Made by a program: the position numbers and the translations under genes. From the NCBI GenBank assembly GCA_023512135.1, contig JAIMAG010000002.1, positions 62,001 to 126,000 on the forward strand: 64,000 nt of DNA, written 5' to 3'. Positions 29,721 to 36,536 of this stretch are shown one piece after another (the stretch's first letter is position 1; every line of letters begins with the position of its first letter). The stretch is from Terriglobia bacterium (lineage in GTDB: Bacteria > Acidobacteriota > Terriglobia > Acidiferrales > UBA7541). The notes below the pieces were generated by a model, which was not told the DNA's origin, ran no database searches, and saw only the letters and a list, made by a program, of their open reading frames with translations.

Positions 29721-30893
29721 ATGCGACATCCCGCGTTGCATCCTCGCCGCAAGACGCGCCCGGTGCGTGTCGGCCGCTATACGATCGGCGGCGACGCACC
29801 CATCGTTGTCCAGTCCATGACCAAGACGGATACCCGCGACGTGGATGCCACCCTGCGCCAGATCGAGCAGCTGGAAGCCGCCGGCTGCGAAATCATCCGC
29901 ATGGCCGTGCCCGACGCCGAAGCCGCCCGTGCGGTGGCGGAAATCCGCAAGCGCACCCAGGCCGTGCTGGTCGCCGACATCCACTTCCAGTACCGGCTGG
30001 CCCTGGCCGTGCTCGACGCGGGCATCGACAAGCTGCGCATCAACCCGGGCAACATCGGCGATGCCGAGAAGGTCCGCGCGGTCGTGAAGAAGGCCCAGGC
30101 CTGCGGCGTGCCAATTCGCATCGGGGTGAATGCTGGCTCGCTCGAACGCCATCTGCTGGAAAAGTACGGCTACCCCACGCCGGAAGCCATGGTGGAATCG
30201 GCGCTCGAACATGTACGCATCCTCGAAGAGCTCGACTTCCGCGATATCATCATTTCGCTGAAAGCTTCCAGCGTGAACATGACCGTGGCGGCCTACCGAC
30301 TGCTCGCCAGCCAGGTGGACTATCCCTTCCACCTTGGCATTACCGAGGCCGGCACGCAATTCAGCGGCACCGTGAAAAGTGCCATCGGGCTGGGCATCCT
30401 GCTGGCCGAAGGCATCGGCGATACCCTGCGCGTCTCGCTCGCAGCCGACCCGGTCGAAGAAGTGCGGGTGGCCTACGAAATCCTGAAGGCGCTGGAAATC
30501 CGTGCGCGCGGCCCGATGATCATCGCCTGCCCGACCTGCGGCCGGCTGGAAGTGGATATGTTCAAGATTGTCGAAGAAATCGAACGGCAGACGGCACACA
30601 TCCACGAGCCGCTGCATCTGGCGGTGATGGGCTGTGCCGTCAACGGACCGGGAGAGGCGCGCTCGGCTCACGTCGGCGTTGCCTGCGGCCGTGGCAACGG
30701 CGTCATCTACCGCGATGGCAAAGCCATCCGCCGTGTGCCCGAAGACCGCATCGTCGCCGAGCTGGTCCAGGAAATCGAATCCTATATCGCGGATCGTAAG
30801 GCCGGCCGCCCGACGACTCCGGAGCAGGAACTACCCCTGCCGGCCGAAGGGCTGGTGGGCATCGCGCCGTCGTCTTCTGCATCCAATGACTGA
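29721..30893 (+). CDS. ispG: 4-hydroxy-3-methylbut-2-enyl diphosphate synthase (flavodoxin)
   Basis: Penultimate MEP-pathway enzyme, a 4Fe-4S protein converting MEcPP to HMBPP. The 390-residue product has the TIM-barrel start ([24 protein letters not shown] in two blocks), INPGNIG and [14 protein letters not shown]. The C-terminal cluster ligands are Cys residues in ACPTCGR and [10 protein letters not shown] followed by a Glu. It lies 12 bases after rseP and 22 bases before the Fur-family gene, so all three are probably cotranscribed. Confidence 0.96.
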
Positions 30894-30915
30894 ACGCACA
30901 GGGAAGGGAACGGTT

Positions 30916-31398
30916 ATGACTGCTTTGCCCGAACGTCGCGTTTCGACCGGCGAACGCATCAACGTGAACGAAAAACCCGGCCGGTTGCAGGCCGAGCTGG
31001 AGCAGCGCGGCATTCGCCTGACCCGTCAGCGACGCGTCGTGCTGCAGGTGATCGAAACGGCCCAACGCCATCTCGATGCAGCCACCATCCTCCGCCGCGC
31101 AAAGAAGCTCGACCCCGGCGTGCATCGTGTGACCGTTTATCGCACCATTGACCTGCTCAAGCGCCACGGGTTGATCGATGAGCTCGACCTGCTGCACCTG
31201 CGCGGTGATGGCCACTACTACGAAAGCCACGGCCCACGCGACCACATCCACATCGCCTGCCTGCGCTGCGGTAAAGTCCGCGAATTCGAAAGCCGCCTTT
31301 TCGAAGAGCTGAAGGAAGAAATCGAGCGCGAACTCGGCATCAAGATCACGATCACCCGCACGGAAATCGGCGGCTACTGCAAGTCCTGCCGGCAATAA
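30916..31398 (+). CDS. Fur-family metal-responsive repressor
   Basis: A 160-residue Fur-superfamily regulator. The N-terminal winged helix includes LEQRGIRLTRQRRVVLQVIE and HRVTVYRTIDLLKRHGLIDEL. The C-terminal dimerisation domain has the metal-site block HYYESHGPRDHIHIACLRCG and a second CxxC at the extreme end (YCKSC). Together the two CxxC pairs form the structural zinc site. Sequence alone does not separate Fur, Zur, Nur and PerR. The paired TTGCAA-N5-TTGCAA sites just downstream match the Nur (nickel) box described in Streptomyces. ATG at 30916 follows a GGGAAGGGAA ribosome-binding site. Likely controls the adjacent receptor-transporter operon. Confidence 0.9.
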   Translation: MTALPERRVSTGERINVNEKPGRLQAELEQRGIRLTRQRRVVLQVIETAQRHLDAATILRRAKKLDPGVHRVTVYRTIDLLKRHGLIDELDLLHLRGDGHYYESHGPRDHIHIACLRCGKVREFESRLFEELKEEIERELGIKITITRTEIGGYCKSCRQ

Positions 31399-31434
31399 CC
31401 CCAGTGTTGGAAAGGCGATTGCGGTTTTCAGGTC

Positions 31435-31457
31435 TTGTTGCAACTAAATTGCAACAA
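31435..31457. promoter_or_regulatory. Operator 1: Nur-type palindrome upstream of the receptor promoter
   Basis: TTGCAA-CTAAA-TTGCAA (31438-31454), extended to perfect 9-bp arms. The layout equals the TTGCAA-N5-TTGCAA Nur box. It lies 17 bases upstream of the -35 element. Confidence 0.7.
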
Positions 31458-31463
31458 TTTTTT
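31435..31463 (+). terminator. Hairpin plus T-run after the Fur-family gene
   Basis: Perfect 9-bp arms TTGTTGCAA and TTGCAACAA around CTAAA are followed by TTTTTT, 36 bases after the stop codon. The stem is AT-rich but uninterrupted, so it can serve as an intrinsic terminator of the ispG-fur transcript. It coincides with operator 1. Confidence 0.5.
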
Positions 31464-31474
31464 CTTCCACCCCA

Positions 31475-31503
31475 TTGACAAAAAACTCTACCTGCCGTAC
31501 TGT
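31475..31503 (+). promoter_or_regulatory. Promoter of the TonB receptor/ABC transporter operon
   Basis: Consensus TTGACA (31475-31480), a 17-base spacer and TACTGT (31498-31503). Transcription should begin near 31510, giving a leader of about 100 bases to the ATG at 31610. It is bracketed by two matching palindromes. Confidence 0.8.
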
Positions 31504-31514
31504 ATTTCTCGTAG

Positions 31515-31531
31515 TTGCAACTTAGTTGCAA
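31515..31531. promoter_or_regulatory. Operator 2: Nur-type palindrome at the transcription start
   Basis: TTGCAA-CTTAG-TTGCAA, with arms TTGCAAC and GTTGCAA pairing perfectly around TTA. It lies about 5-21 bases past the predicted start point, an ideal position for repression. Confidence 0.75.
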
Positions 31532-31609
31532 GTAGATGCACCGCCGCCCCGACCCTCGGAACCGAATCCTGATGAACCACCTGTCCTTTCATTCACGAGG
31601 AGAACGGAG

Positions 31610-34003
31610 ATGAATCCGACCGCCTCGATTTGCCTTCTCGCCGTGTTTCTCATCGTTTTGGTTCCCGCTCTCGCTGCCGACCCCCAGGAGTTGGCCAGCG
31701 GCATCGAGGGGCGCGTGCTGGATCCCAGCGGGGCGGTGGTGGTGGGTGCCAAGGTGCTCCTCTGGCAGCCCGCGACCGCCGTGCAGCACACCAGCTTCAC
31801 CGATGCCAGTGGAGCCTTCCGCATCGCCGGCCTGGTTCCGGGCAGCTATCGAGCTGCGGTGCGCGCCGAAGGTTTTCTGCCTCTGCTGGTTCAGGTGCAG
31901 TTGCAGCCCGGCAGCACGCTCACGGTGGAATGGAAGCTTCAGGTCCAACCGGTGCTGGAGCAGGTGGTGGTGGAAGCGCCGCGATTGGTCAGTCCGGTGG
32001 ATCCGCTGGGGCCGGTGCCTGGCTCTTACGACGTGCTGGAAGGGGCCGTGCTGGAGCTCAGTCGCAGCTTCGACACCACCGAGGCCTTGCGCAAAGTGCC
32101 CGGGCTGAACGTGCGCGACGAAGAAGGCTTCGGCCTGCGTCCGAATATCGGCATTCGCGGCCTGAATCCCACGCGCTCCACAAAAGTGCTGTTGCTCGAA
32201 GACGGCATCCCGCTCGCCTTTGCTCCGTACGGGGACAATGCCTCTTACTACCACCCGCCGCTGGACCGTTTCGACAGCGTCGAGGTGCTGAAAGGTTCCG
32301 GCCAAATTCTCTATGGGCCGGCCACCGTCGGCGGCGTGATCAACTATCTGACGCCGCCCATCCCTGAGCGGCGCAGCGGCTCGCTGACCTTGCTGGGCGG
32401 CAACCGGGACTACCTGAACGCTCATCTGCGGCACGGGTGGCGTTTCTCGGAGGGAGGTCTGCTGCTGGATGTGATGCGCAAGCAGGGGCGCGGCTCGCGG
32501 GAAAACGTGCGCTCCGGACTGACCGATTACAACTTCAAAGGCGAGCTCGATGTTTCCCCCAAGCAAATCTGGGTATTTCGCGCGAACTATTACGACGAAG
32601 ATTCCAACGTGACCTATTCCGGTCTGCGGGAAGACGAATTCGCGGCCAACCCGCGCCAGAATCCTTTCCGCAACGATTTCTTCCGCGGCAAGCGCTTCGG
32701 CGCCTCGGCCACGCATGTCTACGTCTTCGGTTCGGATCTGCTGCTGCGTACAAATCTCTATACGAACATTTTCGACCGGCACTGGTGGCGCCAGTCGAGC
32801 AATTCCAACCAGCGGCCCAACGACGCTGCCGATCCGAACTGTGGCGGCATGGAGAATCTGAACACCACCTGCGGCAACGAAGGCCGTCTGCGCACCTACT
32901 ACACCTGGGGAATCGAGCCGCGGTTCCAGGCCCACCGTCGCTGGGGCCCCCTGGCGGCCGATTCGGACTTCGGTGTGCGTGTGCACTATGAGCTGCAGGA
33001 CCGCATCCAAGAAAACGGTCCGCTGCCGACCTCCCGCTCCGGTGTGCGTGTGGAAGACAACGAGCGGCAAAATGTGGCGTTGGCCGGCTTCTATCAAGTG
33101 CGCATGGCCACGCGTCGCTGGGCGCTGACGCCCGGGCTGCGCCTGGAGCATGTCCGCTACGAACGCACCAACCGCCTGACCGGCGCTCAGGGACGCACGC
33201 ATCTCACGCAGCTCATTCCGGGCATTGCGGTGGCCTATCACATCGCCGAGCGGGCCACCTTTTTCTTCGGTGTGCACCGTGGTTTCGCTCCGCCGCGCAC
33301 CGAAGACATCGTGACGAACACGGGCGGCACGGTGGACCTCGACCCGGAACTGAGCTGGAACTACGAGGTGGGCTTCCGCAGTGCGCCCTATCGCGGCGTG
33401 CGCCTGGAAGCCACCTTCTTCCGCATGGATTATGAAAACCAGGTTGTGCCCGCCAGCGTCGCCGGAGGGCTGGGCGCTACCTTCACCAACGGCGGCGAAA
33501 CGCTGCATCAGGGGGTCGAGCTGGGCGCCCGCCTCGACCTGGGAGCGCTGGCCAGCCTGCGCCACAACGTCTACACCCGCGTGGCCTACACCTACCTGCC
33601 GGTAGCCAAGTTCGTGGGAACTCGATTCAGCAGCATTCCCGGTTTCACCACGGTCAGCGTCAGCGGCAATCGTCTGCCCTATGCGCCGGAGCACGTGCTC
33701 AACTTTCAGATAGGCTATGCGCATCCGCGCGGCCTGGATGCCTTCCTGGAGGCGGGGCATAGCTCGGCACAGTTCGGCGACGACCTGAACACCGTCGTTG
33801 GCACACCCGATGGCCAGCGCGGACTGCTGCCGGGTTGGACGGTGTGGAACGCCACGGTGAACTATTCCTCGGAGCCGCTGCGGATGGTGTTCTTCGTTTC
33901 GGTGAAGAATCTGTTCGACCGGCTCTACATTGCGGATCGCACCCGGGGCCTGTTGCCGGGACCGCCGCGGCTGGTCCAGGGGGGAATCAAATATCGCTTT
34001 TAG
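31610..34003 (+). CDS. TonB-dependent outer-membrane receptor, FecA-like
   Basis: A 797-residue receptor. It has a signal peptide (MNPTASICLLAVFLIVLVPALAA as two blocks: MNPTASICLL and AVFLIVLVPALA), a carboxypeptidase-regulatory-like beta-sandwich at about 28-120 (EGRVLDPSGAVVVGAKVLL), and the plug (about 130-260) with ALRKVPGLNVRDEEGFG and IGIRGLNPTRSTKVLLLEDGIP. A 22-strand barrel ends in the C-terminal NLFDRLYIADRTRGLLPG and a terminal Phe (IKYRF). Barrel sequence resembles ferric-citrate-type receptors. The ATG has a GAGGAGA ribosome-binding site. With its two Fur-family boxes it should be a metal-chelate importer of the outer membrane; the substrate is unknown. Confidence 0.92.
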   Translation: MNPTASICLLAVFLIVLVPALAADPQELASGIEGRVLDPSGAVVVGAKVLLWQPATAVQHTSFTDASGAFRIAGLVPGSYRAAVRAEGFLPLLVQVQLQPGSTLTVEWKLQVQPVLEQVVVEAPRLVSPVDPLGPVPGSYDVLEGAVLELSRSFDTTEALRKVPGLNVRDEEGFGLRPNIGIRGLNPTRSTKVLLLEDGIPLAFAPYGDNASYYHPPLDRFDSVEVLKGSGQILYGPATVGGVINYLTPPIPERRSGSLTLLGGNRDYLNAHLRHGWRFSEGGLLLDVMRKQGRGSRENVRSGLTDYNFKGELDVSPKQIWVFRANYYDEDSNVTYSGLREDEFAANPRQNPFRNDFFRGKRFGASATHVYVFGSDLLLRTNLYTNIFDRHWWRQSSNSNQRPNDAADPNCGGMENLNTTCGNEGRLRTYYTWGIEPRFQAHRRWGPLAADSDFGVRVHYELQDRIQENGPLPTSRSGVRVEDNERQNVALAGFYQVRMATRRWALTPGLRLEHVRYERTNRLTGAQGRTHLTQLIPGIAVAYHIAERATFFFGVHRGFAPPRTEDIVTNTGGTVDLDPELSWNYEVGFRSAPYRGVRLEATFFRMDYENQVVPASVAGGLGATFTNGGETLHQGVELGARLDLGALASLRHNVYTRVAYTYLPVAKFVGTRFSSIPGFTTVSVSGNRLPYAPEHVLNFQIGYAHPRGLDAFLEAGHSSAQFGDDLNTVVGTPDGQRGLLPGWTVWNATVNYSSEPLRMVFFVSVKNLFDRLYIADRTRGLLPGPPRLVQGGIKYRF

Positions 34004-34059
34004 ACCTGCAGGCGGTGCCATTGCGCAAAGACACCGCCGCCGGGGAAGGGAAGGAACTC

Positions 34060-35010
34060 GTGATCGGGCAGAGCAAGTATCTCAGGCAGGCGCAGGGGAT
34101 GGTGGCCTGTCTGCTGCTTCTCGTTAGCGTGACGGCGGCTCGTCCGCCACAAAAACAAAAGCTCGTGGTGGCGATCCAGCCCACCTTTGCGGTCGCCGAA
34201 ATGCTCGAACGGGCCAAGCCGCTGGAACAGTTTCTGGAGCAAAAGCTGGGCGATGTGGATGTGGAAGTGTACGTTCCGCTCAGCCAAGCCGGTGTGATCG
34301 AAGCCCTGCGCTTCGGCCATGCTCACGCAGCCTTCATGGGGCCGTGGGCGGCACAACTCGCCGTGGAGATGGCCGGCGCCGAGCTGGTGCTGGCCGAAGT
34401 GCGCGAGGTGTTGATCGACGGCAAACCCGCGCAAGCCACCTACTACTACTCCTATTGGATTGTTTTGCCGTCGAGTCCCTACCACACGCTGGCCGAGCTG
34501 CGCGGCAAGCGCGCTTGTTTCCCGAGCCCGGTTTCCGGCTCCGGGTATGTAGGGCCGCTGGGCCGGCTGGTGGAAACCAAACTGCTCAACCACACGGAAG
34601 GCCAGGAAGCCAATCCACAGCAGTTCTTTGGCCAGGTGCTGTTTGCCGGCGGCTATGGACAGTGCTGGCAGGCCCTGCAGGCGGGCCAAGTGGACGTCAC
34701 TGTGATCGCGGGCGATGTACCGGCGCGGCTGTACCACACCGTGCTGGAAAATTCTCGGGTGCTGGACCAACAGGGCCCACTGCCCTCGCATGCCGTGCTC
34801 GTCAGCCGGGAGCTGCGCGAGCCGTTGCGTTCGCGTGTGGTGGAAGCGATTGCCGCGCTGGGCGCGCCAGAACACCGCCCGTTGATGCGCACGTTCATCT
34901 CCGGCATCTTCGTCGGTTTTGAAAGATCCAGCGCCGAAAAGCACCTGGCCGCTTTCCGGCGCTATCTGGATTTGACCGGACTGCAATTCACCGAGCGGAT
35001 CGGACGCTAA
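34060..35010 (+). CDS. PhnD-like periplasmic substrate-binding protein
   Basis: ABC-importer binding protein of 316 residues in the phosphate/phosphite/phosphonate (PhnD) family, type II fold. A signal peptide is visible (MVACLLLLVSVTAA near 14-27, followed by RPPQKQKLVVAIQP). Ligand-pocket segments include FGHAHAAFMGPWAAQL and ACFPSPVSGSGYVGPLGRLV, the latter matching the Ser/Gly loop that contacts the anion in PhnD. The GTG at 34060 follows GGGAAGGAA and is preferred to in-frame starts inside the receptor gene. Adjacent to matching ATPase and permease. A metal-regulated promoter suggests the real ligand may be a metal complex; this is inference. Confidence 0.85.
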   Translation: MIGQSKYLRQAQGMVACLLLLVSVTAARPPQKQKLVVAIQPTFAVAEMLERAKPLEQFLEQKLGDVDVEVYVPLSQAGVIEALRFGHAHAAFMGPWAAQLAVEMAGAELVLAEVREVLIDGKPAQATYYYSYWIVLPSSPYHTLAELRGKRACFPSPVSGSGYVGPLGRLVETKLLNHTEGQEANPQQFFGQVLFAGGYGQCWQALQAGQVDVTVIAGDVPARLYHTVLENSRVLDQQGPLPSHAVLVSRELREPLRSRVVEAIAALGAPEHRPLMRTFISGIFVGFERSSAEKHLAAFRRYLDLTGLQFTERIGR

Positions 35011-35014
35011 AACG

Positions 35015-35755
35015 ATGGACCATCCAGCCACCGTGCGTTGTGAAGACCTCTGGTTTTCCTATCCGGGCCAGTCGCCGGTGCTGCGCGGCATCTCTTTGCA
35101 GGTGCCCGAAGGGGCATTCTGGGCCATCTTCGGCCCTTCTGGTGCCGGAAAGACCACGCTGATGAAATGCCTGGCCGGATTGCTCAGACCCCAACGGGGC
35201 CAGATTGCACTGCTCGGGCACGCGGTGAACGGCAATGGATTGCCCGGCTGGCTGCGGCTGAAAGTGGGCTACATCCCGCAGCAACTCGGCCTGGTGCGCG
35301 GATTGACTGCCCTGGAGAATGTCCTGCTCGGTTCGCTCGGGCGCAACGGAGGTCTGGGCAGCATTCTCGGTGCATTTCCGAAAGACGAGGTCGAACGGGC
35401 ACGCGAGTATCTGGCGCTGCTCGGTATCGGACAAAAAGCCCGGGAAAAGGCCTACCGGCTGAGCGGCGGAGAACGCCAACGCGTGGCCATCGCGCGCACA
35501 CTGCTGCAGGGCCCGCGCATCATCTTTGCCGATGAATTCGTCTCGGACCTCGACCTGCCGCGTGCCACGCAAATCCTGACTACCCTGCGCGAGCTCGGCC
35601 AGCGCCAGCGCCTCACCTTCGTGATGAATCTGCACGAGGTCGAGGTCACCCACCAGGTGGCGGACCAGGCACTCGTGCTGAAAGCCGGTTGTCTTGTCCA
35701 TCAGGGCCCGGCCCGGGAGTTGAGCACGGCAGATTTGCTCGCCATCCTGCAATGA
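35015..35755 (+). CDS. PhnC-like ABC transporter ATP-binding protein
   Basis: A 246-residue ATPase subunit with Walker A GPSGAGKTT (40-48), Q-loop in VGYIPQQLGL, signature LSGGERQRVAIAR, Walker B IIFADE and H-loop NLHEVE. The long segment between Q-loop and signature (VLLGSLGRNGGLGSILGAFPKDEVERAREYL in pieces) is characteristic of the phosphonate (PhnC) subfamily. Usual ADEP is ADEF here. Four bases separate it from the binding-protein gene, so the three transporter genes form one operon with the receptor. Confidence 0.9.
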   Translation: MDHPATVRCEDLWFSYPGQSPVLRGISLQVPEGAFWAIFGPSGAGKTTLMKCLAGLLRPQRGQIALLGHAVNGNGLPGWLRLKVGYIPQQLGLVRGLTALENVLLGSLGRNGGLGSILGAFPKDEVERAREYLALLGIGQKAREKAYRLSGGERQRVAIARTLLQGPRIIFADEFVSDLDLPRATQILTTLRELGQRQRLTFVMNLHEVEVTHQVADQALVLKAGCLVHQGPARELSTADLLAILQ

Positions 35756-35777
35756 TGTCTTCCGCCGGGATACGCAG

Positions 35778-36536
35778 GTGAGAAAAGAACTGCTCGTTTT
35801 GCTGACCCTGTTGGGTCTGCTGGCGGCCTCTCTGGCCCAGCTGGGGTTTTTCGACCTTGCGCGGCTCGAGCGCGGGGCGCGCAATCTGCTGGAATTTTCG
35901 CGCGGGATGGTGCCGCCGGACCTGGGCATTCTGCCGCTGGCCGGGCGGGCGCTGCTGGAAACGCTCCAGATGGCGTTCGTCGGCACGACCCTGGGATTTT
36001 TGCTGGCGTTGCCGCTGGGGATTTTGGGCACGCGGATCCTGTTTCCGCGCACGGTGGTGGTGCCGGCCCGTTTGCTGATGGCGGGAATTCGCACCATCCC
36101 CTCGCTGCTCTGGGCCGTTTTGCTGGTGATCGTCGTGGGCCTGGGGCCGCTGGCCGGCACGCTGGCGCTTGCCGCCTACACCGTGGGCTATCTGGGCAAG
36201 TTGTACGCAGAATTTTTTGACGGTGTCGACCCGGAAGTCATCGAAGCCGTCCGCGGTGCCGGTGCCAGCCGGTTGCATCTGGCTCGATTCGTCCTCTGGC
36301 CGGAAAGCGCCAACAGCGTACTGAGCCAGTTGCTGTTCATGTTCGAATACAATATCCGCGTCTCTTCCATTCTGGGCTTTGTCGGCGCCGGGGGCATCGG
36401 GTTCTACATGTACGTCTACGTGAATTCGCTCGAATATCAGCGCCTGGCCACGTTGCTTGCACTGATTTTTCTGCTGGTGCTGGGGATGGATCTGGCCAGT
36501 GCCTGGCTGCGCCGGCGGTATCTGCTCAGGACGTAA
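35778..36536 (+). CDS. PhnE-like ABC transporter permease
   Basis: A 252-residue inner-membrane permease with about six hydrophobic helices. It carries the EAA coupling motif that docks on the ATPase (EAVRGAGASRLHLARFVLWPE, 156-176 region). The segments ETLQMAFVGTTLGFLLALPLGILG and FEYNIRVSSILGFVGAGGIGFY are typical of PhnE-type permeases. Start is GTG at 35778, 22 bases after the ATPase stop. Only one permease gene is present, so a homodimeric channel is expected. It ends nine bases from the convergent ribF stop with no visible terminator between. Confidence 0.9.
   Translation: MRKELLVLLTLLGLLAASLAQLGFFDLARLERGARNLLEFSRGMVPPDLGILPLAGRALLETLQMAFVGTTLGFLLALPLGILGTRILFPRTVVVPARLLMAGIRTIPSLLWAVLLVIVVGLGPLAGTLALAAYTVGYLGKLYAEFFDGVDPEVIEAVRGAGASRLHLARFVLWPESANSVLSQLLFMFEYNIRVSSILGFVGAGGIGFYMYVYVNSLEYQRLATLLALIFLLVLGMDLASAWLRRRYLLRT

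Follow-up and report, generated by a model that had tools for sequence, protein, structure and literature searches.

A Fur-associated operon of a TonB-dependent receptor and PhnD/PhnC/PhnE-type proteins in a Terriglobia bacterium: a probable iron uptake system with an altered phosphite pocket

Gene content of the operon

We analyzed a 64,000-nucleotide stretch of the genome of a Terriglobia bacterium (Acidobacteriota; assembly GCA_023512135.1, contig JAIMAG010000002.1, positions 62,001 to 126,000 of the forward strand), referred to here as the window, in which a gene for a Fur-family regulator is followed by genes for a TonB-dependent receptor and for a binding protein, an ATPase and a permease of the PhnD, PhnC and PhnE types (PhnDCE). 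PhnDCE genes routinely receive the annotation of phosphonate or phosphite transporters, and they serve as markers of phosphorus cycling. Based on the pocket residues of the PhnD-family protein and on the genes that share the operator sequence, we consider it probable that the operon is a Fur-repressed system for ferric iron uptake, in which the PhnD-family protein would bind Fe(III) or a ferric chelate. The genes and control elements, in window positions, are as follows.

30916–31398, + strand: fur, Fur-family repressor of 160 amino acids (PF01475, 1.1e-23)
31438–31454, no strand assigned: operator 1, TTGCAACTAAATTGCAA, an exact TTGCAA-N5-TTGCAA
31475–31503, + strand: weak candidate promoter read from the sequence, TTGACA (31475–31480), 17 base pair (bp) spacer, TACTGT (31498–31503)
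31515–31531, no strand assigned: operator 2, TTGCAACTTAGTTGCAA, an exact TTGCAA-N5-TTGCAA directly downstream of the -10 element
31610–34003, + strand: siderophore/FecA-like TonB-dependent receptor of 797 amino acids, with an N-terminal CarboxypepD_reg domain, plug and barrel
34060–35010, + strand: PhnD-family substrate-binding protein of 316 amino acids, GTG start, apparent signal peptide (PF12974, 2.4e-40)
35015–35755, + strand: PhnC-type ATPase of 246 amino acids (TIGR02315, 2.9e-59)
35778–36536, + strand: PhnE-type permease of 252 amino acids, GTG start (TIGR01097, 6.7e-71)

An earlier note on this DNA had described these five genes as standing in this order with short gaps. All five are present on the + strand, and the gaps from the receptor gene through to the PhnE gene are 56, 4 and 22 bp, the start of the PhnD gene having been set by correction to the GTG at 34060. 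The description of the receptor as FecA-like, also from that note, holds only loosely: the protein scored 189.6 bits against the FecA ferric citrate receptor model NF041676 (cut-off 1100) and 202.7 bits against the TonB-dependent siderophore receptor model TIGR01783, narrowly under its cut-off of 223.5. PhnD exceeded the cut-off of the broad model TIGR01098 (119.5 bits, cut-off 112.05) and fell far below that of the equivalog TIGR03431 (106.9 bits, cut-off 261.1). PhnC was likewise below its equivalog cut-off (TIGR02315, 200.4 bits against 266.1), whereas PhnE was above that of TIGR01097 (238.7 bits against 216.7).

The translated Fur protein has the two C-x2-C pairs of a structural zinc site (CLRC and CKSC), and its closest solved homologues, 5fd6 and 5fd5, are both Fur proteins, with Nur (3eyy) ranking third. 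The same genome has only one further Fur-family gene, at a distant site (C6:307887; codes beginning with C, L, G, g and f are our working labels for contigs, loci, genomes, genera and families).

Operators and promoter

The exact box is rare. A first-order dinucleotide calculation gives an expectation of ~0.005 occurrences of TTGCAA-N5-TTGCAA in 64 kb, and the window has two; the whole genome has three, against none for a reversed control pattern. When up to two mismatches were allowed, the search returned 30 matches against 32 for the reversed control, which is chance level. We therefore set the two-mismatch results aside and used only exact or one-mismatch sites at sensible positions. In more remote relatives, several exact boxes lie ahead of unrelated genes (L012, L018 and L021 among them), and these were left out as well. 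The two window operators are 77 bp apart, and similar spacing is seen elsewhere, with 76–79 bp in four additional genomes or loci and 79 bp in the congener (loci L004, L005, L006, L009 and L028).

The earlier note had placed a promoter between two operators of identical type. The exact pair of boxes stands, but the promoter is weaker than was stated: an exact TTGACA lies between the boxes, the -10 element TACTGT is poor, and a scan for promoter consensus sequences accepted none in this region. The region of operator 1 (31435–31457) also forms a terminator-like hairpin followed by a run of T residues, which may allow it to double as the terminator of fur.

The metal indicated by genes sharing the box

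The window box is identical to the published Streptomyces Nur box, tTGCaa-N5-ttGCAA (PMC3919588), and the metal therefore had to be judged from the genes that the box accompanies. In the same genome, a one-mismatch box, TTGCAACTAAGTTGCCA, lies upstream of feoB (L082:7010; FeoB_N, 3.2e-51), and the third exact box lies upstream of a hemin-type TonB receptor gene that is followed by a gene for a secreted CbiX-like protein. Genes in the relatives' loci were named from a home-made gene caller and by eye, unless a Pfam match is cited. On that basis the box precedes a gene for an FTR1/FtrD-like permease with MacB-like ATP-binding cassette (ABC) genes in four relatives (L007, L010, L019 and L022) and feoB in another (L008), and a fur–box–TonB receptor arrangement adjoining ispG is seen in many relatives' genomes. 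The operators are thus found at iron-uptake genes (feoB, FTR1/FtrD, TonB receptors), as a Fur (iron) assignment calls for. Because the boxes precede feoB in the same genome and both FTR1 and feoB in relatives, we narrowed the metal to iron. The window Fur is most likely an iron regulator, and the predicted iron control of the operon is well supported by the company that the box keeps.

The locus of the third exact box (L005:7082–13741, on contig C48 of the same genome, G000) is a second Fur-box locus in its own right; besides the hemin-type receptor it encodes the CbiX-like secreted chelatase and another TonB receptor, which is siderophore/PqqU-like. The periplasmic CbiX protein of this locus may handle haem or iron.

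The PhnD pocket

The best solved relative of the window PhnD, and its best fold match, is the phosphite-binding protein PtxB. Ligand-contact roles (the STS-H motif, the cap residue and the hinge Tyr) were taken from Te_PtxB (PMC5700983), which also provided the pocket numbering, and this numbering was checked. The aligned codons, all on the + strand, are as follows.

34444–34446, + strand: Tyr129 (Te_PtxB hinge Y100; transferrin Y95)
34534–34542, + strand: S159-G160-S161 (STS in phosphite binders; R124-S-A in transferrin)
34654–34656, + strand: Tyr199 (Te_PtxB H160, the His of STS-H; transferrin Y188)
34789–34791, + strand: His244, in a PSH motif (Te_PtxB cap Y208; transferrin H249)

The earlier note had proposed comparing this pocket with those of known phosphonate binders, and comparison with phosphite and phosphonate binders separates them. 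A functional phosphonate or phosphite binder has an STS-H motif and a Tyr or Asp cap; the window PhnD has SGS, Tyr in place of the motif His (H160 to Y199) and His in place of the cap (Y208 to H244). In a tree of 31 sequences, His244 is present in 24 of the 24 members of the window clade and Tyr199 in 22, with Asp in the other two. By contrast, the seven members outside the clade, which include four phosphite binders (PtxB and three proteins linked to ptxD), all have His at 199 and none has His at 244.

The altered pocket is also found at a distance. On three Rhodobacterales plasmids (L167, L172 and L173), mntR is divergent from an operon of cytochrome c peroxidase, PhnD, PhnC and PhnE genes whose PhnD has the Tyr199/His244 pocket; this operon, labelled a phosphonate transporter, is a candidate metal importer. 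It resembles the window operon in its PhnD clade, in both pocket residues and in adjoining a metal regulator gene, and differs in having MntR rather than Fur, SES rather than SGS or STS, and no TonB receptor. In archaea (Calditenuaceae and relatives, L052–L057), PhnDCE genes encode a PhnD 52–56% identical to that of the window, always with Tyr/Tyr/His; no regulator or receptor gene was seen beside them.

Comparison with transferrin

A profile built from the PhnD relatives matched melanotransferrin (6.7e-14) and a transferrin chain (6wb6, 1.3e-12) in the PDB, and hhalign of this profile with the human transferrin N-lobe gave an E-value of 1.4e-5. Foldseek matched the PhnD model to the ovotransferrin N-lobe (8x3h, 6.9e-12). 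Tyr129, Tyr199 and His244 align by MAFFT to transferrin Tyr95, Tyr188 and His249, which are three of the four protein ligands of the iron; hhalign covers the two Tyr residues only, and the His244–His249 match comes from MAFFT. The human N-lobe sequence used was verified residue by residue against PDB 3ve1. The likeness to transferrin lobes, which bind Fe(III) with carbonate (in the human N-lobe through D63, Y95, Y188 and H249), consists of the fold class, the Y/Y/H set and the PSH motif, and the window PhnD differs in being a single bacterial ABC binding protein. The transferrin homology is common to the whole fold class, and we therefore placed weight on the residue exchanges and the iron control rather than on the E-values.

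Recurrence in other genomes

The comparison took in 120 genomes of relatives and a set of 396 genomes from more distant parts of the phylum. PhnDCE genes are rare among the near relatives, a close copy being present only in the congener G001, which has the same five genes, two one-mismatch boxes and a PhnD 92% identical to that of the window. In genus g87 (family f31), four species have the order receptor, small open reading frame, PhnD, PhnC, PhnE, with a receptor of the same subfamily as that of the window (~50% identity) and a diverged PhnD (~28% identity). A TTGAAA-N5-TTTCAA box, or a near variant, lies directly upstream of the receptor gene in three of the four species; in the fourth the contig end truncates this gene. 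The same box precedes feoAB in five g87 genomes.

A third lineage (f34/f43) has a different arrangement. In G429 (f34) the PhnDCE genes are divergent from genes for a receptor and FTR1, with TGAGACTNAGTCTCA palindromes on both flanks; in G146 (f34) a TGAGACTNAGTCTCA box is upstream of PhnD, and PhnDCE is divergent from another gene; and in G170 (f43) a TGAGACTNAGTCTCA box precedes feoB and a receptor gene. Boxes of the Fur type thus adjoin this kind of PhnD in three of the phylum's lineages, with three box variants that each also mark feoB, and the receptor and PhnDCE share one operon in two of the three, PhnDCE being divergent in the third.

These comparisons bear on the inference of the earlier note that a metal or metal complex is imported through a phosphonate-type ABC module. 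It had suggested looking for the gene order and boxes in other Acidobacteriota, and the arrangement does recur behind Fur-type boxes, in G001 and g87 and in divergent form in f34. It had also held that C-P (carbon–phosphorus) lyase or Pho-box neighbours would speak against such a role. A search that was positive in an Escherichia coli control found no PhnJ (C-P lyase) in the genome of the window, no phosphorus genes, ptxD included, are among the neighbours of the operon in the window, and Fur-type boxes are found instead. The absence of C-P lyase and of adjoining phosphorus genes, together with the recurrence behind Fur-type boxes, supports the inferred metal route.

Proposed mechanism and alternative explanations

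We propose the following working for the operon. When iron is plentiful, we infer that Fe-Fur would occupy both operators and repress the operon by keeping the promoter closed. Iron shortage would lead to synthesis of the TonB receptor, which would carry a ferric complex over the outer membrane. In the periplasm, PhnD would capture Fe(III) or a small ferric complex in its cleft; here we infer direct coordination of Fe(III) by Tyr129, Tyr199, His244 and perhaps Asp219, with a synergistic anion perhaps held by the remaining Ser residues. PhnC and PhnE would then import the captured iron into the cytoplasm. The cargo is probably iron, judging from the sequence comparisons, and PhnD may work like a transferrin. 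By formal membership the protein is not a transferrin, and the PhnDCE module does not qualify as a phosphonate or phosphite importer in the functional sense. PhnDCE as the only ferric importer of the genome is not claimed, because a FecCD-type permease is encoded elsewhere in it (C38); FTR1 was not found in this genome.

Several observations weigh against this proposal. Transferrin Asp63 and the anion residues Thr120 and Arg124 have no equivalents in the window PhnD, which has G94, P155 and S159, and the protein is below the cut-off of the Pfam transferrin family PF00405 (12.6 against 20.3 bits). The type II binding-protein fold is common to transferrins and PhnD proteins, so little can be concluded from the match by itself. 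The confidence of the PhnD model is moderate (predicted local distance difference test, pLDDT, 78), and the score of PhnE remains that of a phosphonate permease. The Y/Y/H clade includes the Rhodobacterales operons adjoining mntR, so its members may not all bind the same metal, and no link to iron is apparent around its archaeal members.

The strongest alternative is a variant of the same answer, in which the ABC module carries an intact ferric chelate, such as ferric citrate, a phosphate- or phosphonate-bearing siderophore or ferric pyrophosphate, and the anion is recognized while the iron rides along. The earlier note had likewise named a phosphorylated or anionic chelator as a possible cargo. 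Two of the three Ser/Thr residues that hold the anion remain (SGS, with STS or SSS in relatives), the receptor is siderophore/FecA-like and transferrin itself requires an anion. We nevertheless regard this variant as rather unlikely, as the exchange of the anion-ligand His for Tyr in nearly all sampled clade members, and of the cap for His in every one, looks like a metal site.

A phosphorus importer (of phosphite, phosphonate or phosphate) under Fur, serving for example phosphorus–iron balance or the recovery of phosphate from ferric phosphate, would fit the PtxB fold match and the scores of PhnE and PhnD above the NCBI cut-offs of their phosphonate/phosphite permease and broad binding-protein models. 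We consider it improbable. PhnD and PhnC fall far short of their equivalog cut-offs, the STS-H motif and the cap are altered, and in two lineages the module shares an operon with a TonB receptor gene preceded by boxes of the Fur type; the genome has no PhnJ, and ptxD does not adjoin the operon, unlike in the true phosphite operons L168, L169 and L171.

Uptake of a nickel (or cobalt or zinc) chelate through the receptor and PhnDCE under a Nur-like regulator was our first idea from the box sequence, which is letter for letter the Streptomyces consensus, and among solved relatives of the window Fur, Nur ranks third. We abandoned it on finding the boxes ahead of feoB and FTR1, and we now think it quite improbable. 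The operator sequence is recognized by the DNA-binding helix and does not reveal the metal, and the nearest solved homologues are Fur proteins. In other lineages, the same operon and feoAB are both preceded by A/T-rich boxes of the Fur type. No nickel genes were seen among the exact or one-mismatch box sites, and no match to Ni-SOD (Sod_Ni) was obtained, though the positive control of that search was equally silent. The window system thus shares with the Streptomyces Nur regulon the box and a Fur-family repressor, and differs in that its box accompanies feoB, FTR1 and TonB receptors.

Manganese or another first-row metal as the true cargo of the Y/Y/H clade, suggested by the Rhodobacterales plasmid operons next to mntR with cytochrome c peroxidase ahead, is very improbable, given that those operons belong to another subclade with an SES motif and no TonB receptor, and that in the window the regulator is a Fur with boxes that also lie at feoB.

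Relation to known systems

Compared with PtxB, PhnD and HtxB systems, the putative iron importer shares the fold, the ABC type, a PhnE above cut-off, the hinge Tyr (Te_PtxB Y100) and part of the STS loop, and differs in Tyr199, His244 and SGS, in the TonB receptor ahead of it, in its Fur-type boxes and in its lack of phosphorus metabolism genes. With FbpABC, FutABC and FecBCDE it would share the role of capturing Fe(III) or a ferric chelate in the periplasm for ABC import under Fur, in FecBCDE with a TonB receptor. To our knowledge, those systems use other binding-protein and permease families, and none has PhnD/PhnE-type parts.

A Fur-controlled iron importer with a TonB receptor is an already known kind of system. 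In the open-access literature we found nothing relevant on an iron-linked PhnD or on a link between PhnD and transferrin; as far as this shows, an iron importer that is built of PhnD/PhnC/PhnE-type proteins and has an altered pocket is undescribed there. A wider suggestion, which is plausible but which we would stop short of calling likely, is that a clade of PhnD-family proteins in bacteria and archaea binds Fe(III) or first-row metals in a phosphite pocket turned Tyr-Tyr-His, and may include the closest counterparts that the transferrin iron site has among prokaryotes. If the clade does carry iron or other metals, its annotation as phosphonate or phosphite transporters would be wrong in several phyla, and the iron ABC importers would gain a new family. 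Tyr199 with His244 would then be a simple rule separating metal from phosphorus PhnD proteins, and bacterial and archaeal relatives would be available for studying the change of an anion site into a transferrin-type iron site.

Additional observations

The gene ispG directly precedes fur in the window (29721–31398 for the pair) and in many relatives (L004, L006, L009 and L014–L016). Unrelated receptors replace the one behind fur in these relatives, as though this were a place where cassettes of Fur-controlled receptors are swapped. In five genomes (L013, L017, L020, L023 and L024), an outer-membrane-like protein with the motif YFVAYDHYLEEPGNLEIEYFS is encoded behind the same Fur box; it gave no Pfam match (L020 tried) and no NCBIfam match (L020 and L023 tried).

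Receptors of the window subfamily in other genomes are 47–64% identical to the window receptor. The genes next to such relatives include PiuC-like/PepSY (L128 and L139), haem oxygenase (L142 and L145) and CbiX-like (L123 and L133, behind the receptor gene) genes, and three (L144, L146 and L147) adjoin cation-efflux-like genes named by eye; others have no such neighbour. Identification of the substrate from the receptor alone was dropped, as this company is too varied. The haem oxygenase genes (L142:6299–6892, with a Pfam match, and L145:9002–9586) suggest that haem is the substrate of some members of the subfamily.

Finally, the contig of the congener (L051, JAIMBE010000062.1) is titled Bacillota, yet its TonB receptor and its rip–ispG–fur order match the Gram-negative genus of the window, and the title looks wrong.

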